The position numbers and the translations under genes were made by a program. A stretch of DNA of 20,513 nucleotides from a virus: positions 1 through 20,513 of IMG/VR virus record IMGVR_UViG_3300020448_001063; one strand, written 5' to 3'. The notes beneath the pieces are model-generated. The model was not told the DNA's origin. It did no database searches and worked only from the letters and a program-made list of their open reading frames with translations. Below are positions 2,094-20,274 of this stretch, one piece after another; position 1 is the stretch's first letter, and every line of letters begins with the position of its first letter.

Positions 2094-2727
2094 TTTTTCT
2101 CTCCATTTTCCAAAAACCTGATCCTGATTCAAAACTATCATGGTCAAAACTATATTTATTCTTTTTTATGAACTCATCTATAGCTTTTTTACAACCTTCA
2201 TGAGCAGGATGATAATCATCACCACATAAGTATTTAGTACCGTTTAAGTATTTAAGTTCATTCTTTACATTTTGATAACTATGTGCTCCGTCTAAATAAG
2301 CCATATCCCATTCACTATCTTTTTTAAGTAGGTTTACACTCTGCATCTGATGTGTTTTCTTATGAATAGAAAAATATCTAGGATGTTGAGAAGCACAGTA
2401 ATCATACACCGTTCTATGATCCTTTTCCATATATAAGTTCATAGCATATACAATTGCAGGATTCTTACTGTTTTTCACCATCACACCATTATAGTGAACT
2501 TGCTTCTGATCACCATTCATTCCAAACGTATCACATACGTGTAGTTTACACCCTTTTGGCAAAGAATCCATTAGTGCCCAAGAACTGAGACCCCATGCGC
2601 ATCCTATCTCCAACACCTTAGAGTTTTCAGGAATAGATGAGGCAAAATCCATGAGACTACTAAGGTGTTTTTGATTATTAAAACCAGGAATGTCCTGATT
2701 TCTTTTTGGAGGATGAGGTATTATCAC
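2083..2727 (-). CDS. class I SAM-dependent methyltransferase (Methyltransf_24/TylF-like)
   Basis: A 214-residue Rossmann-fold methyltransferase. Motif I is VLEIGCAWGLSSWAL (about residues 39-53), an acidic residue at the end of strand 2 is in HVCDTFGMNG (about 64-73), and a DGAHSY...GDDY pattern (about 145-170) matches the substrate- or metal-binding region of TylF/Methyltransf_24 O-methyltransferases of sugars and small molecules. It starts at a GTG overlapping the gp41 stop (GTGA). The substrate is unknown. Because the phage carries a sugar-nucleotide and DNA-glycosylation set, methylation of a sugar is one possibility, but nothing in the sequence proves it; a capsule or lipopolysaccharide target is equally possible. 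Confidence 0.75.
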   Translation of the reverse strand: MIIPHPPKRNQDIPGFNNQKHLSSLMDFASSIPENSKVLEIGCAWGLSSWALMDSLPKGCKLHVCDTFGMNGDQKQVHYNGVMVKNSKNPAIVYAMNLYMEKDHRTVYDYCASQHPRYFSIHKKTHQMQSVNLLKKDSEWDMAYLDGAHSYQNVKNELKYLNGTKYLCGDDYHPAHEGCKKAIDEFIKKNKYSFDHDSFESGSGFWKMERKNDL

Positions 2728-4109
2728 AACTTGAAACCTTCAAATTTAAGTTCTTGTCCGGTAGGTGTTTTATCGAAAGTAGGAGTATCGTCACCATCTG
2801 TATCGATAAGAGTTTGTTCAGCTTGATCAACATCAAACAATCTCATTTTAGATCTATCTACACCAATTACAAATCTTTTCTTATATGTAGGATCGTTGTA
2901 TCTATTCTTTAATTGTTTTACTGCGAGTTGACCCATTTTTTCAAGTTCTTCAGTAGATATAATAGCAAACATTAAGTCGGCGGTAGCGGGTAGTCCAAAA
3001 GACTCGGACGTATCTTCCAACCCAATATCCGTGTTAGAATAACCCGAACGAGTCGTTTGCGTTGCAGAGACGATCGGTACGTCAAACTCGACCGCAAGGC
3101 CACGTATCTCTTCAGCAATTGCTTTAATGTAGGAGTATGAATTGATTGCACCGCCCATTCCTTTCATTCTTGATGAAGCACATATGTTTAAATAATCTAT
3201 AAAGATCATTTCCGGTTCAAATGTCTTCTTAAGTTTTAGCTCGTTTAGTAGAGCTCTAAAGTGTGATGTGTTTGCTTGACCAGTAGGATATTCTTTGATG
3301 ATAAGCTTACCACTAGTTCTTGTAGATAATTTATACACCCTATCTGAAAACATGTCCTTACTTAGATTTTTTAGTTGGTCAATAGGTACATCAAGTAGAT
3401 TAGCATCAATACGTTCGGCAATTCTTTCTTCTGCCATTTCCATTGTAATATAAAGAACGTTACGTCCTTGACTCATAGCTGATGCTGCACAATGGCACAT
3501 GAATAATGATTTACCGACGCCGGTACCGGCGAGACATATGTTTAAAGTTTTGTTTGGTAAACCACCTTTTGTAATTTTATTGAAGTATTCAAGATCGAAA
3601 GGAATTCTTTCTTCATCACGATGATAGAACTCATATCGCTCGTTTGCATTCTCAATATAGTCATGTCCTACATTTGTATCAAACGATACACCTAAAGCTT
3701 TTGTTAAAATCTCTGGTAACGCATTCTTTGTAAGTGTATTGTGCTTTCCATCAATAATTTGTATAGACTCCATAACCGCATTATATAGAGCTCTATCTTG
3801 ACACCACTTTTCTGTATTTTCATACAGCCAAGTTTCATTAACATCTTCTTTTTCAAAAAGATTCGGAATGATTTCCACAGCATGTCTATACTGTTCTTCA
3901 TTGTACGAGTCTGAATTATCAATCTCGATCTTGAATGCTTCTGCATTTGGAAGTTTATTGTATTTTCCAACAAACTTCCCTGCCTCTCTAAAAAGTAACT
4001 TATATATTCCTTCAAAATAGTCCGGCTTGACAAAAGGTAAAACCTTTCTCATATATGTTTCATTACTTAATATATTTTTTAAAACAACTTGTTCTATATT
4101 AGTGTTCAA
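2724..4109 (-). CDS. 41: replicative DNA helicase gp41 (DnaB-like)
   Basis: Hexameric 5'-3' replicative helicase that unwinds duplex DNA ahead of gp43. It aligns throughout with T4 gp41: N-terminal helical domain, Walker A AGTGVGKS, the LYITMEMAEERIAERIDANLL block, Walker B MIFIDYLNIC, and the DLMFAII/RYNDPT C-terminal region. Length is 461 residues (T4 475). I chose TTG at 4109 because AAGGA lies 7 bases upstream and the resulting N-terminus (NTNIEQVVLKNILS) aligns with the start of T4 gp41. A TTG at 4133 lacks a ribosome binding site. It overlaps the upstream gene by 11 bases and the downstream methyltransferase by 4. The uvsX-40-41 order is the T4 order. Confidence 0.96.
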   Translation of the reverse strand: MNTNIEQVVLKNILSNETYMRKVLPFVKPDYFEGIYKLLFREAGKFVGKYNKLPNAEAFKIEIDNSDSYNEEQYRHAVEIIPNLFEKEDVNETWLYENTEKWCQDRALYNAVMESIQIIDGKHNTLTKNALPEILTKALGVSFDTNVGHDYIENANERYEFYHRDEERIPFDLEYFNKITKGGLPNKTLNICLAGTGVGKSLFMCHCAASAMSQGRNVLYITMEMAEERIAERIDANLLDVPIDQLKNLSKDMFSDRVYKLSTRTSGKLIIKEYPTGQANTSHFRALLNELKLKKTFEPEMIFIDYLNICASSRMKGMGGAINSYSYIKAIAEEIRGLAVEFDVPIVSATQTTRSGYSNTDIGLEDTSESFGLPATADLMFAIISTEELEKMGQLAVKQLKNRYNDPTYKKRFVIGVDRSKMRLFDVDQAEQTLIDTDGDDTPTFDKTPTGQELKFEGFKL

Positions 4110-4374
4110 TCGCTTGTCCTTCTGAGCTTTCAATTATTGCTACTAAAACATCTCCAACATGAGCCTGTAGTCCTGCATTATCTGATGTTAAATCTGGATC
4201 TGGTGATTCATGTATTTCAAAATCATATTTCAAAATTGCTGATTCTCCGTCGCCTTCTCTTACGCTTACTTTTCCATAAGAAATAATAGTTTCAGGAAAC
4301 GGGCCGGATAAAAGTCGAACGTGCCACTGTTCTTCACCCTTTGCTATAAATTCATAATCCTCGTTCTCAAGCAT
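4099..4374 (-). CDS. gene in the T4 gene 40 position, function unproven
   Basis: A 91-residue acidic protein, probably beta-rich (EEQWHVRLLSGPFPETIISY, ILKYDFEIHESPDPD), ending in an acidic helix. T4 has gene 40 (head-vertex assembly chaperone, 114 residues) at exactly this place between uvsX and 41, so it may be a gp40 counterpart; I cannot confirm this from sequence memory. The ATG at 4374 overlaps the uvsX stop by 8 bases (ATGCTTGA), a common arrangement here. An in-frame TTG at 4419 would extend it by 15 residues into uvsX without a ribosome binding site. The gene is likely real from its position; the function is inference. Confidence 0.65.
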   Translation of the reverse strand: MLENEDYEFIAKGEEQWHVRLLSGPFPETIISYGKVSVREGDGESAILKYDFEIHESPDPDLTSDNAGLQAHVGDVLVAIIESSEGQAIEH

Positions 4375-5401
4375 CTTCTGCAACAATTTCATCCATTGAG
4401 ACTTGTTCAGTGTATCCAATAGAGTATTGCTTCTTTATAAATTCCTTGAAATCTGTGTCAGCAAAGGTAGGAGTCCAGAACTCTTCAAGAAGAGTTTCGG
4501 CTTCTCTTACTTTACTTTCTTCTCCTCTTCTTTGATACCAACCGTTAGATGGTTTGGTTACGTAACCACCAGCAAGAGCTACGTCAAGAAGACCCGAATA
4601 GTTTGATACGCCGCCTTCCCATGTAACTGAGATTGGAATCTTTGATTTTTCTTTTACATACCTAGATTTTTCAACATTAATAACAAAGTGGTAGCCTTTG
4701 ATTTCTGTACCTTTCTTGTCTTGCTGACGACCTATAATCCAGATATTATCTGCACTATAGTATATACCTGTACCGCCACCCACAACATCTTTAGGAAATA
4801 AACCTATTTCTTTGTACGTATGATTAACTGCAAGAAGAGGAATATTCTTCATTGCAAGATAAGGTGTTGTCATACGAAACAAACCTTTGAGAGCCTTTGC
4901 TCTTGACATGTCTGCAACAGATTTTTCATTGAGTGTGTCTTCCATTTCTTTTTTAGAAGCTAAGTTACCAATTGAGTCAATTACAACTATAACCTTATCT
5001 TCTCTATCTAGATTTTCAAGTTGGCTTATCATATCAAATTTGAGTTCTTCTACGTTTGTGATTGGAGTATGTAGAACTCGAGTAGTGTCCACGCCGAACT
5101 GTTTGAAGTATGACTGTGGTGAACCAAACTCTGAATCATAGAATAACATAACAGATTCAGGATATTTTTTCATATATGCTGCAGCCATTAGAAGAGCAAA
5201 AGAAGTTTTAAAATGTTTTGAAGGACCGGCAAGAACAGTAAGTCCTGGAGCTAAGCCACCGTCGACCGATCCAGATAAAGCAACATTAATCATAGGAACA
5301 TCCGTTGATACCATATCTTTTTCAGTAAAAAATTTAGACTCTGAAAGAACTTCAGTGTGGCTCAGCTTTGAGTTCTTTTTGAGTTTATCCATTATAGACA
5401 T
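4367..5401 (-). CDS. uvsX: UvsX RecA-like recombinase
   Basis: Strand-exchange ATPase of T4-type recombination-dependent replication and repair. Walker A is GPSKHFKTS at residues 59-67, the same unusual lysine-rich P-loop style as T4 UvsX (GPSKSFKS). Walker B is VIVVID at 137-142, followed by SIGNLASKKE. KDVVGGGTGIYYSADNIWII matches the UvsX core. Length is 344 residues (T4 391), the difference lying in the C-terminal region. The ATG is preceded by AAAGGAG with good spacing and by a clear promoter at 5427-5455, so it opens a transcription unit with genes 40-position and 41. Confidence 0.96.
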   Translation of the reverse strand: MSIMDKLKKNSKLSHTEVLSESKFFTEKDMVSTDVPMINVALSGSVDGGLAPGLTVLAGPSKHFKTSFALLMAAAYMKKYPESVMLFYDSEFGSPQSYFKQFGVDTTRVLHTPITNVEELKFDMISQLENLDREDKVIVVIDSIGNLASKKEMEDTLNEKSVADMSRAKALKGLFRMTTPYLAMKNIPLLAVNHTYKEIGLFPKDVVGGGTGIYYSADNIWIIGRQQDKKGTEIKGYHFVINVEKSRYVKEKSKIPISVTWEGGVSNYSGLLDVALAGGYVTKPSNGWYQRRGEESKVREAETLLEEFWTPTFADTDFKEFIKKQYSIGYTEQVSMDEIVAEDA

Positions 5402-5455: not shown

Positions 5456-6646
5456 TTAAAAAAATGCTTCAAGTGTGGCGGGTTCTGGTTCTGACCAGAA
5501 AGTTTTTGTCTTGTTGCACTGTATTGCAAAGTTAGTTTTTTTCATCTGCGCTTTTCCATACAAAAAATTCTTAACGTTTTCTGCCATGTCACTTGCAGTT
5601 GTCACTGGAACATTTTGACATATCATATTTAAATTTTTGACACCTCCAACTAGATTAAAATCCTTAGGCATCTTCATAATATCTAGACACTCTCTTACAT
5701 TCAAGTATCTATCAGCATCTGGATGTGTAAGCATACTAGGGTATGCACCAACAAAGGCACCGATATAATCCTTAGGAACTACAACACCTCTTCTCATAAT
5801 GTTGCCTCCAGCCTTTAATTTATCTCCCATTCTCCTACACTTTATAGCATGATCAGTATAACCTTTCTTATCCGCCCACTCTGCGACTTCATAGTAATTA
5901 CTGCCATTGTCTTCAATATAGTGCATAATATCCCAAGTCTTATCGATCTTTTTTTGAAAATCAGTATGAGATATATTGTCATGCATTACTTCTAAAACGT
6001 ATTTGTAAAATAGATCTTCACTTGGCTTAGAAGTTTTAACCATAGTATCGGTCATAATATCAGGTTCGTTAGTTGCACTGCTTCTGATCTGATCAGCAAT
6101 ATTTTTATACGGTCTATTATAGTAACTAAATATTGGTACTTTATCTCCTTTCCAGAAGAAGTAAAATGCTCTATCTCTAACTTGACTCAATCCGTGAAGT
6201 ATAGATTTAGTTTTATAAAGACTCACAGTGTAACCTAACTCATCAGCCAGTTCTCTCATCTTACTAACAATAGGTTCTCCCATTTTGCTAGCAAGTCTAG
6301 GCGCGTTTTCTCCCCAGAAAACCTGAGGTTGAACGTTTTCTAATACATACTTAGCAGACTTAAGCATCCAATCGTTAGTAGGACTATCAGCGCTACTACT
6401 GGTATTAAGCGCAGAAAGGCCAGCACAAGGACAGACAGTGTTGACAACATCCACTCGAGAAGGAGCACTGCCACCCATATCAAGCTTAATATAAGGAACG
6501 TCGTTATTATAATGGTTAACAAGTTGACTATCATTTGCTTCAAAATCTGAGTATGAAAGAATGTACTCAGGACGAGTCCCGAATACATTTTCCATTGCGA
6601 ATGTTTCTCCACCTATAAGCGGAACTATGCTAGCATAACTATTCAT
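5456..6646 (-). CDS. divergent C5-cytosine DNA methyltransferase
   Basis: Predicted to transfer a one-carbon group to C5 of cytosine in DNA. From the ATG at 6646: motif IV with catalytic C74 (VCPCAGLS), motif VI ENAP (113-116), motif VIII QVRDR (155-159), motif IX RYLNVRECLDIM...PKDF (about 314-330), and motif X QNVPV (344-348). Motif I is degenerate: SIVPLIGGE replaces the usual FSGxGG. Length is 396 residues. The C-terminus PATLEAFF resembles the last residues of the phage's DNA polymerase and glycosyltransferase, a likely sliding-clamp tail. The ATG at 6646 overlaps the dehydrogenase stop by 8 bases and sits just before motif I; a TTG at 6715 would add 23 residues. It is the last gene of the sugar cassette. 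Why a hydroxymethylcytosine phage keeps this enzyme is unclear. Confidence 0.85.
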   Translation of the reverse strand: MNSYASIVPLIGGETFAMENVFGTRPEYILSYSDFEANDSQLVNHYNNDVPYIKLDMGGSAPSRVDVVNTVCPCAGLSALNTSSSADSPTNDWMLKSAKYVLENVQPQVFWGENAPRLASKMGEPIVSKMRELADELGYTVSLYKTKSILHGLSQVRDRAFYFFWKGDKVPIFSYYNRPYKNIADQIRSSATNEPDIMTDTMVKTSKPSEDLFYKYVLEVMHDNISHTDFQKKIDKTWDIMHYIEDNGSNYYEVAEWADKKGYTDHAIKCRRMGDKLKAGGNIMRRGVVVPKDYIGAFVGAYPSMLTHPDADRYLNVRECLDIMKMPKDFNLVGGVKNLNMICQNVPVTTASDMAENVKNFLYGKAQMKKTNFAIQCNKTKTFWSEPEPATLEAFF

Positions 6647-7481
6647 AAGAAACGTTCTGTGCTTTTTCTCTATCGCACTTTTCATAATCTTTTCTATATT
6701 TATTATTTTCTTCAACCGCTTTTTCTAAGAGAGAAAAGTTGTGATCTGAAAAGTGTATGAAGGCAGAGGTATCTTTAGGAAAACATGCTCCACCAAAACC
6801 ACGCCGGCCATCGTGCCCTGGAACACGTGTATGTGACTGACCTATTCTTGGATCCTCTCCGATTGCATTAATGATACGACCAAAGTTACCTCCAAATTTT
6901 TCTACTACATCATAGAACTGATTAAAGAATAAAACCTTTGTAGCAAGAAATGAATTGATTCCATACTTTACAAAAGAAGCGTCTGACGCTTCCATATGAA
7001 ATATTGGACATGGTTTACACAAGCTGTGTTGTTTATATATTTCCTCAACGTTTTTTGTAACAGCTGGACTTCCTCCAAAGATATGCATAGGAGGATTCAC
7101 AAAATCTTCCACAGCATTTTTTTCAGTTAAGAACTCAGGATTATAACACACTCTGTTCTTTCCAATCTGATGAGTAGAAAGTCTTTTAATAACATCTGGT
7201 GTAACAGTAGATTTAATTACAATTATACCGGATCTTCTTGTCATTAGTTTGTTTACAGAGTCTTCTACAATAGAAGTATTAACAGTTCCGTCATCTGCCA
7301 TTGGAGTGGGTACACATATAAAAGTAATATCTGCTTCTAGTGGTGATGTAGTTTCAATACTTTTGTTCTCATCGTAAATTGGATCAATAATTGTTTTTTC
7401 ACAAGTATGATCATTGAATCCATAATCTACAGCTTTACCTACAAATCCATGACCAACTATACACACTTTAAGTTTTTCCAT
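6639..7481 (-). CDS. ugd: UDP-glucose 6-dehydrogenase (short form)
   Basis: Predicted to oxidise UDP-glucose to UDP-glucuronate using two NAD+. The N-terminal dinucleotide-binding motif GHGFVG is at residues 10-15, CVPTPM at 56-61, NPEFLTE at 114-120, and the catalytic cysteine is C233 in GFGGACFPKD, all diagnostic of the UDP-glucose/GDP-mannose dehydrogenase family. At 280 residues it lacks the C-terminal UDP-binding domain of typical 390-450-residue enzymes, so it may be a minimal phage form. A one-base TAATG overlap links it to the upstream epimerase-like gene. Together they would make UDP-glucuronate and UDP-galacturonate. The nucleotide-sugar substrate (UDP-Glc versus another NDP-sugar) is inference from its partner. 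Confidence 0.88.
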   Translation of the reverse strand: MEKLKVCIVGHGFVGKAVDYGFNDHTCEKTIIDPIYDENKSIETTSPLEADITFICVPTPMADDGTVNTSIVEDSVNKLMTRRSGIIVIKSTVTPDVIKRLSTHQIGKNRVCYNPEFLTEKNAVEDFVNPPMHIFGGSPAVTKNVEEIYKQHSLCKPCPIFHMEASDASFVKYGINSFLATKVLFFNQFYDVVEKFGGNFGRIINAIGEDPRIGQSHTRVPGHDGRRGFGGACFPKDTSAFIHFSDHNFSLLEKAVEENNKYRKDYEKCDREKAQNVSYE

Positions 7482-8425
7482 TAATTAACTCCGTAATATT
7501 CTTTGTACCAAGTTATAAACTTTTCAACTCCAACCGGTACGGGGGTTGTAGGAACGTATCCTAATTTTCGAAGCTTAGTAGTATCAGACCATGTTTCAGG
7601 TGTATCTGCTGGATGAGCAGCCACTAATAACCTTTCAGTTTTTCTACCTAAGTTCTTTTCTATCTCATCAACAAAGTCAACTAACTCTACTTGAGTACCG
7701 TGACCAATATTATAAATCTCATGATAAGTTTCATTGCTCTCAACAATTTCATCAACTACGAGTTCAATACCTTGTACAATATCATCGACAAAAGTAAAGT
7801 CTCTTTTCATGTCTCCGTAGTTATAAAGCTCAATAGGTTTACCTGCTACAATAGAATCTGTAAAAGAAAAGAGCGCCATGTCTGGTCGACCATAAGGACC
7901 ATACACTGTAAAAAATCTTAGTCCTGCAGACCGTGACAACTTCGAATGCATAAATTGACATTCATTTGCTCGTTTTGACCAGCCATAAGGGTTGTTTTGG
8001 TGAAGTGGCCTATCATGCTCGTTCCATGGAAGTGGTTGACCGTGCATAACGCAACTGCTAGATGCGTATACAACTGGAATATCATGATTTTCTGCTACTT
8101 CAACAATCCTTTGAGTACCTGTTATATTAGTATCAATATAGGGTTGTGGTTCTGCAAGGGCGTGTCTTGGGTTTGCATATGCTGCTAGATGTAAGATACA
8201 ATCATAATCTTTTACATCATCTTCTAACATAGTGAAGTTCTGAATATCACCAGTAAGTGTTTCAATTCCTTCTTCTCTTAAAATAGTTGCTCTATCTTGT
8301 TTTAGTTTTACGTCATAGTAATCATTAAAATTATCTAGTCCTTTGACGTCCCACCCAGCATTTTTAAATGCAAGAGCGGAATGGAAGCCGATCATACCGG
8401 CTTGTCCAGTTATGAATATTTTCAT
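7481..8425 (-). CDS. SDR sugar-nucleotide epimerase, UDP-glucuronate 4-epimerase-like
   Basis: A 314-residue extended short-chain dehydrogenase. The NAD-binding motif is GQAGMIG (residues 7-13) and the catalytic triad is S122-124 with Y147xxxK151 (YGWSK). The stretches GLDNFNDYYDVKLKQ (29-43) and GLRFFTVYGPYGRPDMALF (168-186) are characteristic of UDP-glucuronate 4-epimerases (UDP-GlcA to UDP-GalA). Its nearest neighbour, UDP-glucose dehydrogenase, would supply that substrate. The related UDP-glucuronate decarboxylases (giving UDP-xylose) are the main alternative; the DNFNDYYD signature favours the epimerase. ATGA overlap with the upstream glycosyltransferase, one-base overlap with ugd downstream. 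Confidence 0.85.
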   Translation of the reverse strand: MKIFITGQAGMIGFHSALAFKNAGWDVKGLDNFNDYYDVKLKQDRATILREEGIETLTGDIQNFTMLEDDVKDYDCILHLAAYANPRHALAEPQPYIDTNITGTQRIVEVAENHDIPVVYASSSCVMHGQPLPWNEHDRPLHQNNPYGWSKRANECQFMHSKLSRSAGLRFFTVYGPYGRPDMALFSFTDSIVAGKPIELYNYGDMKRDFTFVDDIVQGIELVVDEIVESNETYHEIYNIGHGTQVELVDFVDEIEKNLGRKTERLLVAAHPADTPETWSDTTKLRKLGYVPTTPVPVGVEKFITWYKEYYGVN

Positions 8426-9666
8426 GCGAAAAACTCCTCTAGTCCTTGTGGTTGGTTTTCTTCAGTATTAATTGCAAGATCGACAATTTCGTTAACAACC
8501 ATCTCGCCATCTGAGTGCTGCTTCCAAAATTCAAATGCCATCTCTCTCCAATCATCTCTCATAGTAGGATCATTCTTTAGTCTGATCATTAGTTCGCGAC
8601 ACTCTTTAAAATTAGAATAGTCAAGGCCAATGGTGCCGCTGTTTTGGCATTGACTAATTGGTTTACCCTGCACAGGGTGAATTACGTTATCACAAAAGTG
8701 TTTATGAAATATAGGTACTGTTCCTGATGCAATACATTCTGCATGACAGTTTTCAATATTATCTCCATAAGTTTCTGCTTTTAAGTGATATAAGTCTGAA
8801 CCGAATGCTGATAGAGCCATTCTTTTCATACAATCTGAGTTTATATATTGAGGATATAAGTATGCACCTTTACCTGTAACTTCTTTTCCATATAGATCTG
8901 GTGTAAACTTAACGTCACCATGTTGTTTTTCTGGCCTGAAGTGATTCTCAACGATCCTTCTATCAACTGGATTCTCCTCTTTATTATCTCTATAAAGAAC
9001 AAGTGGATATTGAATAGAAGCTTCTAGTCCTTCAAGAACAGTTATGAATCCATTGTTCATTAATTCATCTTGGTGATAATCAATCATGAGACTAGGACCC
9101 TTCCACATAGCAGTACGTCCTATCCAGCGAATCATATTATCTTGTTGCTCTTCAATAGGCCTCCAGTATTTTTCTCTGTGTCCTTCATAATCAAAACCTA
9201 AAGCCATCTTCGTAAGTGGGGTCTTAATATTATTCTTTTTCATGAACTTTGAAAAATCATTTTCAAGCGAGTGAGTCATGATAACATCAACACTCATACA
9301 AACATCTGCTAAATTTGCATTACGTGCAATAGATGCTGCTTTATGATCTACATTGATAAATGCTTTTCGGATATGAACACGATCAAGAAACTTTAACCAG
9401 TTGTCTTTACAATCTTGAGGGTGAGACTTTGAAGGAACAGAATATACGATACATAGTTCATGTGAATTTACAATTGCAGCCATAGCTTCCCATTCACGAC
9501 CTAAGTTCATTTCCATTTGATCAATTTCTAAACCTTTTGCTCTTCCCCACTTTTTATCGTTTGCAGATAAGATCTTTGCACCTGTAACTTTTTGCATTTG
9601 TATTGCGCATTGTGTTACACCGCAACCTTCAGTACCACGACCAAGTACAATAATTATTTTATTCAT
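8422..9666 (-). CDS. agt: DNA hydroxymethylcytosine glycosyltransferase, T4 alpha-glucosyltransferase homologue
   Basis: Predicted to transfer a sugar from a UDP-sugar to 5-hydroxymethylcytosine in DNA. It aligns with T4 AGT (GT-B fold): RGTEGCGVT (10-18) versus RGLEGCGVT; VDHKAASIARN (106-116) versus the T4 QHDHSVLSLRRN region; IRWIGRTAMWKG (179-190) versus NRWIGRTTTWKG; QYINSDCMKRM (273-283) versus CYINSEMLERM; and ECIASGTVPIF (310-320) versus ELGACGTIPVF. Length is 414 residues (T4 400). The start ATG follows GGAGGAATAA directly after the UDG-like gene. The C-terminal LEEFFA is a likely clamp-binding tail; T4 AGT is reported to interact with gp45. The donor sugar may differ from glucose because UDP-glucose dehydrogenase and an epimerase follow immediately. 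Confidence 0.9.
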   Translation of the reverse strand: MNKIIIVLGRGTEGCGVTQCAIQMQKVTGAKILSANDKKWGRAKGLEIDQMEMNLGREWEAMAAIVNSHELCIVYSVPSKSHPQDCKDNWLKFLDRVHIRKAFINVDHKAASIARNANLADVCMSVDVIMTHSLENDFSKFMKKNNIKTPLTKMALGFDYEGHREKYWRPIEEQQDNMIRWIGRTAMWKGPSLMIDYHQDELMNNGFITVLEGLEASIQYPLVLYRDNKEENPVDRRIVENHFRPEKQHGDVKFTPDLYGKEVTGKGAYLYPQYINSDCMKRMALSAFGSDLYHLKAETYGDNIENCHAECIASGTVPIFHKHFCDNVIHPVQGKPISQCQNSGTIGLDYSNFKECRELMIRLKNDPTMRDDWREMAFEFWKQHSDGEMVVNEIVDLAINTEENQPQGLEEFFA

Positions 9667-11566: not shown

Positions 11567-11987
11567 ATGCAACTCCCGCTTCAGTAAACATAGACTGCGT
11601 TAAGCCCCATGATTCTTTCCAGCGGTCGGTGATTTCTTGTTTTGGCATAACTACTCTTTTTACACCTACTTGTACTATTCCTTTTGCACAATCTGAGCAA
11701 CAAGGAAGTCCTACAACATAAAAGGTACTACCTTCTAGTGATATACCACTAAAGGCAGCATTGAATATAGTATTCATCTCTGCATGTACAATATACTTAA
11801 GTTTGATTTCTCTATTTTCTAATCTATCATTATCTGATATGCTACGAGGAAACCCATTATAACCTTGTGCTAGAACTTGACCCTTTTCGCCAATAGCAAC
11901 GCATCCAATCTTAGATGATGGATCCTTTGACCATTTAGATATTCTTTCAGCCAGCTCTAAGTATCGCTTATCCCATTTATTTGACAA
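11553..11987 (-). CDS. cd: dCMP deaminase
   Basis: Deaminates dCMP to dUMP, feeding thymidylate synthesis by ThyX. Zinc-site motifs are HAE (about residues 68-70, HAEMNTIFNAA) and CSDC (about 97-100, in LPCCSDCAKGIVQVG). The N-terminus SNKWDKRYLELAERISKWSKD matches the usual start of dCMP deaminases, so I chose the TTG at 11987, with AAAGG about 10 bases upstream. An ATG at 12011 would add 8 residues inside gp42 without a ribosome binding site. Length is 144 residues; T4 Cd is 193 with an extra insertion. It competes with the adjacent gp42 for dCMP, so both genes together set the dTMP to hydroxymethyl-dCMP ratio. Confidence 0.92.
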   Translation of the reverse strand: MSNKWDKRYLELAERISKWSKDPSSKIGCVAIGEKGQVLAQGYNGFPRSISDNDRLENREIKLKYIVHAEMNTIFNAAFSGISLEGSTFYVVGLPCCSDCAKGIVQVGVKRVVMPKQEITDRWKESWGLTQSMFTEAGVAFEFI

Positions 11988-12636
11988 GATGAAAGTGCCT
12001 TTCGTAAACATGTAGATTTTGTACTTGCCATGTTATAAAGCCCGTTTCAATTCCTAACATTTCTGCTAGTTCTTTTTGAACAAATCTTTGCCAGGCGTAA
12101 TCATTTTTATATCCATATACAACATCATTTGACCGCATTTGAACTACAGCTTGCAACTCGTCATTTCGAATATAGTAAGTAACTGAATTAGTACAAATAA
12201 AGTCGTTCTTACCATCTTCATTATATTCATGCCAGATAGACGGACGATTGTAAATCATTGAGGCCCTACGACCATCTGGATTATCTCGCAATTCTCTGTA
12301 AACGTTTCCAAACTGGTTATAGTATTTATCACTGTAAATTAGTTTACCATAATTAGAATTAATCTCACCTTCTTTATTTGCTGAGTACTGCCAAGCTGCC
12401 GGTGGTTCTGGTTTATCCCATATGTCATTAATATTAGTAGACTCAGACTTATACCACTTTAGTTCTGCATCAATATACTCATTGTTTGGTTCACCAAAGA
12501 TAGCTGGCTCATCTGCTAGAAAAGAAGCACCGAGTAGTTCAATTGTTTTTTGACCTGTTTTATCTAACTCAAAAGCTTCATCATTAAGTTCATCAATAAA
12601 GTATTGACGAATATCTTTAACACTATATGTTATCAT
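11977..12636 (-). CDS. 42: deoxycytidylate 5-hydroxymethyltransferase gp42
   Basis: Makes 5-hydroxymethyl-dCMP from dCMP and methylenetetrahydrofolate, so that hydroxymethylcytosine replaces cytosine in phage DNA. It is clearly homologous to T4 gp42: LDKTGQKTIELLGASFLADE, KGEINSNYG, RRASMIYNRPS, DFICTNSVTYYIR, MRSNDVVYGYKNDYAWQ. The catalytic C148 and the D179 that distinguishes dCMP from dUMP specificity fall at the same residue numbers as in T4. At 219 residues it ends just after VYERHFHLVK, so about 25 residues of the T4 tail are absent. It overlaps the nucleotidyltransferase gene upstream by 14 bases and is followed by dCMP deaminase. Confidence 0.95.
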   Translation of the reverse strand: MITYSVKDIRQYFIDELNDEAFELDKTGQKTIELLGASFLADEPAIFGEPNNEYIDAELKWYKSESTNINDIWDKPEPPAAWQYSANKEGEINSNYGKLIYSDKYYNQFGNVYRELRDNPDGRRASMIYNRPSIWHEYNEDGKNDFICTNSVTYYIRNDELQAVVQMRSNDVVYGYKNDYAWQRFVQKELAEMLGIETGFITWQVQNLHVYERHFHLVK

Positions 12637-14612: not shown

Positions 14613-15050
14613 TTATAATATTTTTTGCCATACATTGATTTTTGCAAACTTATTACCATTCCACTTGTATACGCCTTCATGATGATATTCCTTGTCAACC
14701 TTATTGTTTATGAAGATATAAACTATATCAGGATATTTTCTCCATTCATCAAGCTTATCCTTTTTACATCTATCCAGAACATAAGGTACATTTCCCATAT
14801 GTCCCGTTACTTTTATTTCAACAGGATCAAGGTAAGGATCGAGTAAATCTTTGTATTCTCTCTCATCGTCAATCCAGCCAGTTTCTATAAGATACTGTTC
14901 AGCTGCATGACTATATTCACAGACTTCATATATCTCTTTAAAAGTTCTACCTCTTCGTGTCGATTCCTTATTGAATATCTTTTCAGCTTCATTCTTAGCT
15001 CTTTGGCGCCACTCATCCGGATTTATTATTTCATCCGTATTGAAGCTCAT
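14613..15050 (-). CDS. possible PD-(D/E)XK nuclease-like protein
   Basis: A 145-residue protein not confidently recognised. The pattern E51 (SHAAEQYLIETG) on a helix, D71 or D75 (LLDPYLDP), then E78-I-K80 (VEIKVTG) on a strand, followed by PDIVYIFINN, has the order and spacing of the PD-(D/E)XK nuclease core found in restriction-like and phage repair endonucleases. The C-terminus GVYKWNGNKFAKI may be a small beta-hairpin. I chose the ATG at 15050 because it starts 7 bases after the preceding gene's stop; a TTG-type start at 15083 would lie inside that gene. Nuclease activity is inference. Confidence 0.5.
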   Translation of the reverse strand: MSFNTDEIINPDEWRQRAKNEAEKIFNKESTRRGRTFKEIYEVCEYSHAAEQYLIETGWIDDEREYKDLLDPYLDPVEIKVTGHMGNVPYVLDRCKKDKLDEWRKYPDIVYIFINNKVDKEYHHEGVYKWNGNKFAKINVWQKIL

Positions 15051-15057
15051 ATTATGT

Positions 15058-15999
15058 TCAAACGTTTCTGTATGCAAATTCAATAGCCCTATCTGCTTCT
15101 ACGTCAAGTGGCCTAGTTCCGTATCTGTTAGATGTTTCAGAGTCCAGTTGTTTGATTAAACCAACAATGGTCTGACTGTTAATAGGATAACTTGACTTGA
15201 TTGCGTTAATTGCAATAGACACCATGATCTTATAGATCATACCATATCTTCCACTGTTGTCTATATGTGCAATGGATTTATATTCAGCGATTAGTTTCTT
15301 GTTTACAAAAGGACAGTCGCTGTAACCTGTCCAGTATACGTTAGTATTTTCAGCTTTTTCTTTTCTATGCTGAATAACTTGTTTTTGTAATTCTTCTGGA
15401 AGTCGATCAAGAAAGTTAGATGATCTGAGTTTTTCAACAAATGGGTGTTTCTCCATAAGTTCATTAGGATCTAAAAAAACGCCAGTGTTATTAGTAAACA
15501 TAAAGTTGAAAGCGCCAGTGTACGTACCAGGGATATAATACATTCGTGATAGATCTTTAGTTTGTTGGTCATTAATCTGACCGAGTTCGTTGTTGAGGGC
15601 GAACCAGAAAGATCTGATGTCATTTGATCTAACTCTTCTTTTAGTTGGAAAGACCAAACGAAACTTTGGATAACTTTCTCTACTGCTAGCAGTACTATAA
15701 CAAATATAATAGTACTTACCATATAAGTTCCTAAGCTCATTTTCTAAGTCACCTTCAATCTTGTGATCATCAACATCAACAGCAGCCCAACCTCCCCAAT
15801 CAACCACATTTTTGTTGGCCCTAGTTGTATTTGCAACATAAGTAGCCGGTGATATAAGCTGTGCATCTTTTTTACCTCCAAGCTTTCTTTTAGATAGATT
15901 GTACAAAAACTCCTCGAACTCATTAAAGTCCGAGAAGTTCATGCGTTTATGAGTTTTATTATCGTATATATTCTTAAAGAATGTCGCTGATATTTCCAT
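15058..15999 (-). CDS. AEP-superfamily primase-like protein
   Basis: A 313-residue protein that resembles the archaeo-eukaryotic primase/RepB-type catalytic domain: the acidic motif AAVDVDDHK (D75, D77, D78), then YSTASSRESYPKFRLVFP (101-118), which matches the strand-helix STxS...PRxRxVxP block, then KDLSRMYYIPGTY (148-160) as the third motif. The usual histidine of the second motif is not evident. The C-terminal half (about 200-313) is helical, like PriCT-type extensions. It could lay down primers for gp41/gp43 or be a repair prim-pol; no DnaG-like gp61 is in this window. The start ATG at 15999 overlaps the MazG-like gene by 26 bases and has no strong ribosome binding site. Confidence 0.6.
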   Translation of the reverse strand: MEISATFFKNIYDNKTHKRMNFSDFNEFEEFLYNLSKRKLGGKKDAQLISPATYVANTTRANKNVVDWGGWAAVDVDDHKIEGDLENELRNLYGKYYYICYSTASSRESYPKFRLVFPTKRRVRSNDIRSFWFALNNELGQINDQQTKDLSRMYYIPGTYTGAFNFMFTNNTGVFLDPNELMEKHPFVEKLRSSNFLDRLPEELQKQVIQHRKEKAENTNVYWTGYSDCPFVNKKLIAEYKSIAHIDNSGRYGMIYKIMVSIAINAIKSSYPINSQTIVGLIKQLDSETSNRYGTRPLDVEADRAIEFAYRNV

Positions 16000-16387
16000 G
16001 ATTATCTTTATGGCTAGGTCCTTGCCACCCCTCAGGTTTCAATAGATCTGGTAGTCCAAATGGATTAGGTCTGCCGGCTTTTACTCCAGGTTCTTTATTC
16101 ATATTTGCTTTATATATCTCGTCCCATGCTTTGTTAGCGTCAACACCGAATACGTCAAGTGTACCAATGGCAAATACGCATAGATCAATCAGACCATCAA
16201 CCACTTCTTCAGGATTTCCGTCTTCAAATGCTTGTAGCGATTCACTCATTTCTTCTTGACACATGTTTAAACGAAACTGTAAATAAGTTTTCATAAGATC
16301 TTTATCATGTTTGTTTTGTTTAAACCATTTGTGTACACCAAATTTTTGGTGCATATCTGCAATATCTTTTACCCAATCATTGCTCAT
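15974..16387 (-). CDS. MazG-like nucleotide pyrophosphohydrolase
   Basis: A 137-residue protein with the MazG/all-alpha NTP-PPase metal motif EExxE...ExxD: CQEEMSESLQAF (E45, E46, E49) followed by EEVVDGLIDLCVFAIGTLDV (E60/E61, D64, D68). It would hydrolyse (d)NTPs to monophosphates or act as a housecleaning or ppGpp-modulating enzyme, as proposed for phage MazG. An extended C-terminal GRPNPFGLPDLLKPEGW tail is typical of phage versions. The ATG at 16387 gives MSNDWVKDIADMHQKF, with AAGGAG about 11 bases upstream; an ATG at 16408 overlaps the upstream stop (TAATG) and is an alternative. Confidence 0.82.
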   Translation of the reverse strand: MSNDWVKDIADMHQKFGVHKWFKQNKHDKDLMKTYLQFRLNMCQEEMSESLQAFEDGNPEEVVDGLIDLCVFAIGTLDVFGVDANKAWDEIYKANMNKEPGVKAGRPNPFGLPDLLKPEGWQGPSHKDNHGNISDIL

Positions 16388-16407
16388 TATAAATGTAGCT
16401 CCTTCCA

Positions 16408-16884
16408 TTATGTTAGCCCCGGCATTGTGAATAGTGCGTTTACTTTATCAAATTTTCCAACTGGTTTCCTTGCAAACACGCACCACTTGAATGCAAACAT
16501 TGTTTCTTTTGTCCTACAAAATTCTCTAAAACTTGTCCCTGTAGTATACACATCATCTACTACTAACCAAGGATGATCGCCTTTAGTTGTATATGGTTCT
16601 AGTGCATACTGTAGAGGTAATCCTCCTCTTGGAATTCCAACAACTTTACTAAAAGGTTCTAGTTGATAATCCATAATCATTTTTGCTATAGCATCCCACT
16701 GTTGACTTGTGATGGCATCACACTCTATTTTCCATTTAAGAGGTAAACCAGCATGACTAGTAAATTCTCCGAGTTGAAATAGATCAATAGTATTTTCTTT
16801 CTTTAGTTGAGGCAAGTTATCCCAAAACTCAAGTTGTTCTTCCGTATCAATCATTGCTTTTATATCCTCACCACTAATATTCAT
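16408..16884 (-). CDS. phosphoribosyltransferase, orotate PRTase-like
   Basis: A 158-residue type I phosphoribosyltransferase. The PRPP loop is LVVDDVYTTGTS (about residues 107-118), preceded by GIPRGGLPLQYAL (83-95). The N-terminal LGEFTSHAGLPLKWKIECDA resembles the substrate-binding FTLxSG block of orotate phosphoribosyltransferase. It would attach or remove PRPP-derived ribose-5-phosphate from a base, perhaps pyrimidine salvage. The start at 16884 has AGGAG 5-6 bases upstream; an in-frame upstream start at 16914 runs through the promoter -10. First gene after its own promoter. Confidence 0.85.
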   Translation of the reverse strand: MNISGEDIKAMIDTEEQLEFWDNLPQLKKENTIDLFQLGEFTSHAGLPLKWKIECDAITSQQWDAIAKMIMDYQLEPFSKVVGIPRGGLPLQYALEPYTTKGDHPWLVVDDVYTTGTSFREFCRTKETMFAFKWCVFARKPVGKFDKVNALFTMPGLT

Positions 16885-16931: not shown

Positions 16932-17638
16932 TCTTTTATTTTCCATGCACGTAAATATTTTAGTGTATCTTTCCAGTCTCTTACTTCAACCGCGGCAGAA
17001 TCTTTACGAGGTCTAATTGCTTTTGCTAGAGGATAGTCATTACCTCCGGGTTTCATCTTATCACCGAAGAAAAGAATAGGCCCATCAACCTTATTAGCTA
17101 CCTGAGACTTATCATATCCTTTTGGAATAATGTCAATTCCAGTTTCTCCTGCAACCTGTGCCGTAAGTCCGGGGAACGCTTTATTAAATTCCTCGGCTAT
17201 CTTTACTCTTTCACTAGTTTCTCTATCCCAACCTACATAAAGTTTTCTTTCACCAACTGTAGCGTTTCTTCCTACAATACTAAAGTTGACCAGTCCGGGT
17301 CTATCCTCGATATGGTTTCCAGTTCTGCAACCAAACTTACTTTCTACAAGATGTTTTCCCAACCAGTTTTTAGCCTTTTCTGACATTTTCCATTCAGAGG
17401 AATATACTTCTTCACCGTGTCTCCATATACTGTTTCCTGAACAATTATAACACGCAATAGCTTTTTCACATATGTCCTGTCCAACTTGTTCTATTGTTTT
17501 TATATAGTCAGATCCAGTGACGAGATACGTAGGGTTTTTTTCCATAAAGTGTAGAAAGAACTCTTTAAATGCCTTGTCCATTGTGCCTCTACTAGGCGTA
17601 AGCGTACCGTCAACGTCAAATATAAAGCTATGTGTCAT
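16904..17638 (-). CDS. phosphomannomutase, eukaryotic PMM type (HAD family)
   Basis: Interconverts mannose-6-phosphate and mannose-1-phosphate; PMM enzymes often also act on glucose phosphates. The catalytic DVDGTLTPSR (D8, D10) starts the protein, TGSDYIKTIEQVG follows, RTGNHIEDRPGLVNFSIVGR matches the arginine-rich phosphate-binding block of human PMM2, and GDKMKPGGND near residue 193 matches the PMM motif GDKTMPGGND. Length is 244, as in PMM2 (246). ATGA overlap with the DNA polymerase stop. It may supply hexose-1-phosphate for nucleotide sugars; the link with the UDP-sugar genes 7-10 kb away is inference. An animal/plant-type enzyme in a phage is unusual. Confidence 0.92.
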   Translation of the reverse strand: MTHSFIFDVDGTLTPSRGTMDKAFKEFFLHFMEKNPTYLVTGSDYIKTIEQVGQDICEKAIACYNCSGNSIWRHGEEVYSSEWKMSEKAKNWLGKHLVESKFGCRTGNHIEDRPGLVNFSIVGRNATVGERKLYVGWDRETSERVKIAEEFNKAFPGLTAQVAGETGIDIIPKGYDKSQVANKVDGPILFFGDKMKPGGNDYPLAKAIRPRKDSAAVEVRDWKDTLKYLRAWKIKDVHELVGVV

Positions 17639-20274
17639 ACGAAGAAATCCTCCAGTGTATTAGGTTGCATCCAATTGACTGCTTCAAGAATAGGATTGAG
17701 TGGATCCATAAAAGTTTTGTCAAATTGTGTTTCATAATCTATGAACTTATGAAGGTTAAATTCTGGAGGTAAGTAGTCTGGAAACGATATTACATTCTCA
17801 CCTATAGGATTAGGTGTCTTGAGATAACAGAACTTGATCTTATCGCCGGAATTTATCATTGTATACTTTTTACTAAGACTATGCTTAAGTACATAGTGAT
17901 TGTATAATAGAGCACCTCTTACATGAATAGGTGTACCTTTCTTATAGATTAATTTATTATCATGAAACTTATTAATCTTTTGAACTCCTCGAGGAAATGA
18001 AACCTGCTCAGGTCCAAGGTTTTTAAATTCATTCTTAAAATTATTTATGAACCTTTCACCTTCTTGTTCTGTACCTGATACAATAATCTTGAATGATTCC
18101 TTGAACTTATTACGAACAACTTCTGGTGTTGAAGACTTGATGGCTTCAATACCCATAATCTTAAGTTTGGGTTCAGCATACTGTACACCTTCAGAGTTGT
18201 GTACGTTTAAGATGTATCTTTTCTTTGCGGTCCAGATCCCTCTATCTGCAATCACTTCACGACCCATTTCTAATCTTGGAGTAAAGTGATTTGAATACTT
18301 ATGAAGTCTTTCATATGATTTACTTATAACCTTTTCAAAGTGCTCCTTACATATTTTATCTAAAGCTTTTACAGGATCTTTAGGTTGTAATTTTTCTACG
18401 AGAGGGCCGAAGTTAATATATACCGAATCCGTATCAATTGCAATAACGTAGTCTTTGTTATTAGTCTTTAAGACTTTATTGAGCTCTTTGTTGATTTCTT
18501 TTTCTGCCCATTTGATAGAAAGCTGACCAGTTATAGTAACACTTTCAGCAAGAGCATTGTCAAAATACTTAAAGTATTTGTTAGCTAACGCACCATAAAG
18601 AGAGTTAAGTAAGATCTTAATAGCCATCTGATTATTTTCAAGAGAGTTGATCTCAGCTTCTAGTTGACGAGTCTTTTCTTTCTGATATCTTGACATTGCA
18701 TCAAGCATTTTTTTCTTTATTTCACTACGCTCAGCATAATACTCGACAATCAATGAAGGAATTATTCCTTGATTAGACTTATAGTACTTAACACCGTTTG
18801 CGCACTGAGAATATTTGTCACTTATCTCTATCTTTTCGTTTAAATACTTTTCAACTTTATTATGACATTTGGCCACATATCTTTCTTGATCATGTTCATC
18901 TACATACTTGTCAAAAAAATCTGGTTTTGGAATATCGTCTCTGACTAAAGTTTCAGGTGATATATTTGCCTGAACAATTATGTTTGGATATAGAGAGTTT
19001 AAGTCAAAAGAAACAACCCAATCATGAGCTCCTACTTGAGGAGACTTCACATAACCACCAGCAATTGTAGATGGTTTTACATCTTTAAAATCTTTTGCTG
19101 CTCCACTATTACTGCTATTTGTAGAACCTTCTTGTGCACCAACAATTGGATATTGAACTGTTTCTATTTGACTTATTGGTGAAATGATTTTATTTTTTAA
19201 GAGTCTTCTATAAATGATTGATTCCCATATAGACGTTGTTCCAAACGTATCACTTATGTTTACGCCGGCTTTGTATGCCATAGTCATGACCAGATTAATT
19301 AGACCCATCTTCTCATCAATCCTATCAACAAGTTGAACGTCTTTAATGTTATAGTCAATAAATTTTTGAAAGTCATTTTTATAGAGATTGAAAAGATCAC
19401 CGTGTTCTTCATAAGATAGCTTACGTTCACCAAGGACTACATAACCTATGTGATCAAGTTTATACGATTCCTGTGCACCATAAGAGTAGCCAAACTTTCG
19501 AAAGAGTTCTAGATAGTCTGCCTGTTGAATACCTGAGATCTCAAACCCGTAGTTCATTCTACCACCAATAAGTTGGTTTCTTTCATTTATAAGTTTCCAA
19601 GGAGAGAGTCTCTTCATAGCTTCTTCACTACCGAGAAGTCTTATACGGTTAATAATATAGGGTATATCAAACCATCGAGTATTCCAGCCTGTAATAATAT
19701 CAGGATAGTCTTTAACCCAATATCCAAGAAACTTTGCAAGTAGTTCAGATTCATTCTTACACTTGTGATACTGAATTATATTACCGTGAAGTTCTATCTG
19801 ACATTTTTCTGCATCATATTCTCCACAACCCCAGACTTGAAAGACCGAAGACTTACTTGATTTGACAGTGATTGCTGTGATAGGGTGTTCTGCTTTTTCC
19901 GGAATAGGAAAGCCATCGTCAGACGCGACCTCAATATCGAAGTTCACTACGTTTATTGAGTTTGGATTGAACGATACTTTATCGGGAAACTTATCAGTTA
20001 TGAACTGATGAATGTAGTTGGTAGTGCCATACATCTTCAGGTTATCCATATCTTTATACTGCTCAAGAAATTCTTTTGCTTCTCTCATAGTATCAAAAGA
20101 CATAGGTGTAATATCAGTACCATCAAAAGAAACGTACTCTGTTTTTTCTTTTGACGGAATAAAAAGTGTTGGACTAAACTTGTATTTGTGAGATACGGCA
20201 ACTCCATTCTCGTTGTAACCACGATAAAGTATGGAGTTGCCAAAGCGATTCACAGACGTATAAAATGCTTTCAT
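17635..20274 (-). CDS. 43: DNA polymerase gp43 (family B)
   Basis: Replicative polymerase with 3'-5' proofreading. Exo I FDIEVASDDG (D113, E115), Exo II WNTRWFDIPY (D203), Exo III YNIKDVQLVDRID (D312); Pol A FDLNSLYPNII (D424), Pol B KILLNSLYGALANKYF (553-568), Pol C DTDSVYI (D614, D616). Length is 879 residues (T4 898). MKAFYTSVNR aligns with the first residues of T4 gp43, so the ATG is secure. A serine/asparagine-rich insert lies at about 381-394. The last residues, NTLEDFFV, are a probable sliding-clamp (gp45) tail. The -10 box ends 7 bases before the ATG and no ribosome binding site is visible, so the message should be leaderless, unlike T4 gene 43 with its translational operator. Confidence 0.98.
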   Translation of the reverse strand: MKAFYTSVNRFGNSILYRGYNENGVAVSHKYKFSPTLFIPSKEKTEYVSFDGTDITPMSFDTMREAKEFLEQYKDMDNLKMYGTTNYIHQFITDKFPDKVSFNPNSINVVNFDIEVASDDGFPIPEKAEHPITAITVKSSKSSVFQVWGCGEYDAEKCQIELHGNIIQYHKCKNESELLAKFLGYWVKDYPDIITGWNTRWFDIPYIINRIRLLGSEEAMKRLSPWKLINERNQLIGGRMNYGFEISGIQQADYLELFRKFGYSYGAQESYKLDHIGYVVLGERKLSYEEHGDLFNLYKNDFQKFIDYNIKDVQLVDRIDEKMGLINLVMTMAYKAGVNISDTFGTTSIWESIIYRRLLKNKIISPISQIETVQYPIVGAQEGSTNSSNSGAAKDFKDVKPSTIAGGYVKSPQVGAHDWVVSFDLNSLYPNIIVQANISPETLVRDDIPKPDFFDKYVDEHDQERYVAKCHNKVEKYLNEKIEISDKYSQCANGVKYYKSNQGIIPSLIVEYYAERSEIKKKMLDAMSRYQKEKTRQLEAEINSLENNQMAIKILLNSLYGALANKYFKYFDNALAESVTITGQLSIKWAEKEINKELNKVLKTNNKDYVIAIDTDSVYINFGPLVEKLQPKDPVKALDKICKEHFEKVISKSYERLHKYSNHFTPRLEMGREVIADRGIWTAKKRYILNVHNSEGVQYAEPKLKIMGIEAIKSSTPEVVRNKFKESFKIIVSGTEQEGERFINNFKNEFKNLGPEQVSFPRGVQKINKFHDNKLIYKKGTPIHVRGALLYNHYVLKHSLSKKYTMINSGDKIKFCYLKTPNPIGENVISFPDYLPPEFNLHKFIDYETQFDKTFMDPLNPILEAVNWMQPNTLEDFFV

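Follow-up and report, generated by a model that had tools for sequence, protein, structure and literature searches.

A 313-aa protein with an ATG start, encoded at 15058..15999 of the window, a stretch of 20,513 bases that is a whole IMG/VR record and a fragment of a T4-like phage, probably acts as replicative primase within a T4-type replisome where an AEP-type enzyme (PHROG 9765) has replaced gp61. Computation supports the fold, the active-site residues, the conserved gene context, and a loss of gp61 that left gp41 in place; catalysis, a gp41 contact, and the make-up of the primers (RNA or DNA) are predicted. The label 'DNA primase' is already attached to this family in PHROGs and GenBank, so identifying a primase here adds nothing new; what appears to be new is the probable replacement of gp61. 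The core genome listed for T4-like viruses includes both gp41 and gp61 (PMC2993671), and we found no published report of gp61 replacement by an AEP in the open literature.

The initial annotation had proposed an AEP-type primase on the strength of three motifs, each of which we located in the ORF (DVDD, residues 75-78; STASSR...PKFRLVFP, 102-118; DLSRMYYIPG, 149-158), and to its description we add that the coding strand is the minus strand. The protein matched PHROG 9765 with E = 1e-58 in two stretches, the best spanning residues 2-242, and its relatives matched the same family likewise. Several phage helicase-primase PHROGs gave weak matches to the same region, and profile alignment against the N-terminal parts of the helicase-primases of Streptococcus phage 315.6 and Kagunavirus K1ind1 (E 7e-9 and 1e-10) brought the motifs into register. 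Profile searches of Pfam and NCBIfam with the protein returned no significant match, and sequence searches of the PDB, with the single protein or a profile, returned nothing relevant.

Relatives of the protein are encoded by 116 IMG/VR contigs, and the copy in phage C48C1 has relatives in at least 600 viral contigs; a short-pattern search of IMG/VR using the Vibrio-phage copy as query found no relatives. Family length is uniform (303-323 aa), and dN/dS against close relatives is approximately 0.1 (0.025/0.215 against L003), indicating purifying selection. Given the many relatives, the uniform length, the low dN/dS, and motif residues that are invariant among 106 distinct sequences, we conclude that this is no chance ORF. 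In genome_contigs we found 13 relatives, mostly or all in metagenome-assembled bins. A cellular origin for these was considered and rejected, since the primase is flanked in every fragment by gp43 or by further members of this phage gene block, and the 13 therefore look like binned phage contigs rather than hosts. A 156-aa ORF (14613-15083, minus strand) overlaps the primase stop by 26 bases and stands beside the primase in many relatives; neither Pfam nor PHROGs gave it a convincing family assignment.

The role of the protein had initially been made to hinge on gp61, with a replicative primase expected if gp61 were absent from the rest of the genome and a second primase if it were present, and all large AEP-bearing relatives that we searched fall on the 'absent' side. 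PHROG 47, which covers gp61 and also fires on most bacterial control genomes, detected gp61 in T4, Syn1, Melnitz, and four other cyanophages, as well as in ten metagenomic contigs that carry it. Using this profile, gp61 was not found in 21 of 22 AEP-bearing records, nor in 16 further AEP-bearing fragments. Nine of the gp61-free records are large, three of them deposited as complete genomes; the nine comprise the complete 156-kb genome of C48C1, the Vibrio phages henriette 12B8 at 107 kb and V6Aob at 99 kb, and metagenomic contigs measuring 160, 151, 145, 140.5, 106, and 97 kb. PF08275, applied to a smaller record set, gave the same picture, and a dedicated 87-sequence gp61 profile run at full sensitivity against every C48C1 ORF returned nothing, with T4 and Syn1 controls scoring 405 and 460 bits. 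PHROG 9765 was found in none of the 13 gp61-bearing records of the same set (Fisher's exact p = 9e-9 for mutual exclusion of AEP and gp61, with records taken as independent and shared ancestry ignored). The gp41-type helicase was kept in all seven AEP-bearing records of at least 99 kb that were searched. As the window genome is a 20.5-kb fragment, we infer the absence of gp61 from its own virus from these large relatives.

The exception, a 71-kb AEP-bearing contig (G002), also carries a 171-aa Toprim-only ORF with no zinc ribbon. The 171-aa Toprim-only protein (L094:1417-1932, plus strand, on the contig of L028) resembles the catalytic core of gp61 without the zinc ribbon and is possibly a gp61 remnant. 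Matches to PHROG 451 in C48C1 and four other AEP records at first appeared gp61-like; these were rejected, as they fall mainly in the N-terminal 140 columns of the profile, which represent a different gene, located ahead of gp61 in cyanophage genomes, and were not counted as gp61. These N-terminal matches lie at OQ984149.1 68549-69043 and in the records of L028, L012, L004, and L031, and what is apparently the small gene found upstream of cyanophage gp61 persists in these phages that lack gp61.

We next consider the surroundings of the primase gene. The 'T4-like replisome' named in the initial annotation is borne out by homologues of gp43, gp41, and UvsX in the window (Pfam, PHROGs), all on the minus strand: a gp43-type family B DNA polymerase (17635..20274; PHROG 262, E 5e-300), a gp41-type DnaB replicative helicase that is the proposed partner of the primase (2724..4133; PHROG 19, E 6e-128), and a UvsX recombinase (4367..5401; PHROG 97, E 5e-93; PF21134). 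The window gp41 is 68% identical to that of C48C1 and 60-62% identical to cyanophage gp41. A MazG-like pyrophosphohydrolase (15974..16408, minus strand; PF01503, E 7e-10) overlaps the primase start and is a conserved neighbor. In a majority of the 80 loci, to the extent that the fragments cover it, we observed the block gp43 - MazG - AEP - TS-like - dCMP deaminase - ... - UvsX - gp41. C48C1 carries gp43, 44, 62, 45, 32, 46/47, UvsX/Y, and gp41, supplying the clamp, loader, and SSB of the T4-type set, and its AEP, which is the sole annotated primase, sits between gp43 and UvsX/gp41.

Among 39 dereplicated loci, AEP distances correlated with those of gp41 (r 0.926), gp43 (0.932), and UvsX (0.856), and none of 999 permutations reached values as high. 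The gp41 tree calls for at least two changes of primase type, in either direction, with the placement of the L028/L030 clade and the root both unsure. No gp41 residue is fixed such that it separates AEP-phages from gp61-phages, and thus nothing points to a rebuilt primase-docking site, which counts against the replacement reading; the excess divergence of the gp41 N-terminus is in step with overall divergence. UvsX proteins of AEP-phages are 57-81% identical to that of the window, and those of gp61-bearing Syn1 and Melnitz are ~30% identical, although their gp41 proteins are ~60% identical.

These observations bear on the possibility that the protein is a second, repair or damage-tolerance PrimPol, with gp41 recruiting the host DnaG to prime the lagging strand, or with an unrecognised primase of the phage doing so. 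Many AEPs act in repair or repriming (PMC4538821, PMC8136793), and the helical-domain match described below is weak. However, loss of gp61 coincides with the AEP in every large record, the AEP tracks gp41 and gp43 and is located in the replisome block, and C48C1 has no other annotated primase; we consider a repair role unlikely.

Twelve residues are invariant in the 106 distinct family sequences: R60, N62, D75, D77, R114, D144, Q146, T147, K148, D149, R152, and P157. The R60-x-N62 pair (15814..15822, minus strand, as for all motifs here) precedes motif I, D75-V-D77-D78 (15766..15777), which lies at a beta-strand end in the model and contains the putative metal ligands D75 and D77. The motif II region, S102-TASS-...-K112-F-R114-LVFP (15646..15696), is supported by alignment to the 315.6 and K1ind1 helicase-primases; within it K112 is present in 104 of 106 sequences. 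The motif II His is absent, and the position that it holds in most AEPs is occupied, by the alignment, by R114. Lying on the strand that follows, this Arg would be a natural substitute; Arg or Lys at motif II is known in DR0530-like AEPs (PMC5862659), and R114 can be taken as the phosphate-binding residue of this motif. Motif III/IV reads D144-x-QTKD149-x-S-R152-MYYIP157 (15529..15570), with D144 (or D149) as the motif III acidic residue. An alignment to cyanophage S-2L PrimPol, whose active-site residues have been described (PMC8065100), equated D75/D77 with E85/D87, D144 with D146, and R152 with R157; its score is weak, and we therefore infer this mapping from motif order and spacing. The invariant D75/D77, D144, and R152 would fit AEP catalysis. 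With the predicted fold, the motif I DxD/E, the motif II residue, and the motif III acidic residue all found, the protein very probably belongs to the AEP superfamily, with its activity predicted.

The missing His might instead mean that the protein has the AEP fold but little or no catalytic activity, and serves in initiation or origin binding. Proteins of the RepB' and pRN1 types start at defined sites, which lends this idea some support. Yet the two Asp residues of the metal site, along with D144 and R152, do not vary among the 106 sequences, and the Arg at motif II has its precedent in the DR0530-like enzymes, making an initiator role highly improbable.

To define the fold, we modelled the protein using AlphaFold2 with 58 relatives (pLDDT 89.6). 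The model and structural matches suggest an AEP (prim-pol) catalytic domain at residues 1-190 (15430..15999, minus strand) followed by a helical C-terminal domain at residues 191-313 (15061..15429, minus strand), which AlphaFold2 modelled alone with pLDDT 90.9 and pTM 0.84. In a Foldseek search of the PDB, the sole match below E 0.001 was the AEP domain of S-2L PrimPol. The same enzyme ranked first for the catalytic domain in VIA-align, with a Z of 8.9, a score close to what unrelated models can attain, and was followed by CAPP (CRISPR-associated Prim-Pol), HP0184, RepB', Prim-PolC, MPXV E5, the LigD polymerase domain, PriS, and pRN1 primase. Each Z is moderate and the list is coherent, with nearly all of the top rows being AEP enzymes; HP0184 has been placed with S-2L PrimPol and RepB' in one group (PMC8065100). 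Structure prediction and both structural comparisons thus back the AEP fold that had been proposed, and the earlier guess of a RepB/PrimPol type proved close, with S-2L PrimPol the best match for the catalytic domain and RepB' for the C-terminal domain. The latter match spans RepB' residues 217-300, with 75 residues aligned at Z 6.5, a modest value where the domain is helical (others at most 5.1), and Foldseek returned no significant match for this domain; its resemblance, as a small helical bundle, to the C-terminal part of RepB' is suggestive only. No helicase or ATPase domain was found in the 313 residues by Pfam search or in the model, unlike P4/D5-type helicase-primases, and the protein did not match gp61, zinc-ribbon, or Toprim families in Pfam or PHROGs, searches in which gp61 controls matched theirs. 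That the protein is not an AEP and resembles one by chance is scarcely credible: a single Foldseek match and the Z of the first VIA-align row leave room for it, but the top catalytic-domain rows are nearly all AEP enzymes and the profile matches to phage helicase-primases, with motifs aligned, are independent of them.

The model thus suggests a stand-alone AEP with a predicted catalytic domain and a RepB'-like helical domain, which can be compared with several known systems. The N-terminal AEP-like domains of the 315.6 and K1ind1 proteins, which share a clear profile match and the same motifs, are fused to a helicase, whereas the window primase is separate and its helicase is gp41. RepB' works beside a hexameric helicase. 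As the window primase may do, RSF1010 RepB' (3H20) combines an AEP domain and a C-terminal helix bundle in a stand-alone protein; however, it is plasmid-borne, has no detectable sequence similarity to the window primase, and belongs to enzymes with Gln at motif II (PMC5862659), where the window family has Arg in 106 of 106 sequences. DR0530-like AEPs have Arg or Lys at motif II (PMC5862659), as the window family does with R114; the comparison covers this residue, and the protein is not assigned to that group. S-2L PrimPol (6ZP9) shares the AEP core and, by alignment, equivalent residues in motifs I, III, and IV (PMC8065100), but differs in having a PriCT-2 and a further C-terminal domain and a motif II His, and S-2L is not T4-like.

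Closer to the window, the complete T4-like genome of C48C1 (156 kb) has been assigned to Kyanoviridae, and its 'DNA primase' (WJE87912.1) is 45% identical and is the same gene between gp43 and UvsX/gp41. In the C48C1 record this primase is known by label only, and we found no remark on the missing gp61 in the readable record or literature. The henriette 12B8 and V6Aob products, also labelled 'DNA primase' (PHROG 9765), are ~30% identical over the full length with the same motifs and belong to the same family. Their genomes keep a gp41-type DnaB and lack gp61, but the neighborhood differs from that of the window, the primase being followed directly by a Dda-like helicase (L082/L083). The gp43 of henriette 12B8 is divided between ORFs of 502 and 380 aa that have another gene between them.

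T4 gp61 probably does the same job beside gp41 as the window AEP with an unrelated fold, a zinc ribbon and a Toprim/DnaG core (PMC3012046). In the replisome that we propose, gp41 would open the fork on the lagging strand, the AEP would make short lagging-strand primers at a two-metal active site, and gp43 with the clamp would extend them. The helical domain may help hold the template and first nucleotide, by analogy with RepB' and PriCT-type domains. T4 gp61 needs gp41 to make useful primers (PMC3012046), which implies that the AEP either has its own contact with gp41 or works without one. We raise more tentatively the possibility that a large aquatic T4-like lineage swapped gp61 for an AEP primase-polymerase that would dock on gp41 and synthesise DNA or mixed primers.

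The T4 replisome serves as a textbook model; a listed core gene, gp61, seems to have been swapped for an unrelated enzyme in a common T4-like lineage. With an AEP in these phages instead of gp61, the replication machine best studied among phages seems to have had one of its parts exchanged. The AEP-bearing group consists of widespread aquatic T4-like phages and is common, as the number of viral contigs with relatives of the C48C1 copy indicates. If the replacement is true, sister lineages use two unrelated primases alongside the same hexameric helicase and polymerase, and since gp41 is still ~60% identical across the swap, one can ask how a primase couples to a DnaB-type helicase, by a docking site or not.

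The window also encodes, on the minus strand at 11977-12636, 8422-9666, and 6639-8425, genes that suggest DNA modification: a TS-fold protein, a DNA alpha-glucosyltransferase (PF11440, E 1e-31), and homologues of the C48C1 UDP-glucose dehydrogenase and nucleotide-sugar epimerase. The TS-fold protein has GYKNDYA where TS has an Asn, which we take to be a dCMP-hydroxymethylase signature. Together, the TS-fold, glucosyltransferase, and sugar genes suggest that the DNA contains glycosylated hydroxymethylcytosine, the sugar perhaps being a uronic acid. In C48C1, the UDP-glucose dehydrogenase and epimerase genes also adjoin the primase. A C5-cytosine methyltransferase homologue (5456-6715, minus strand; PF00145, E 2e-18) lies in the replication block and is conserved in many relatives.
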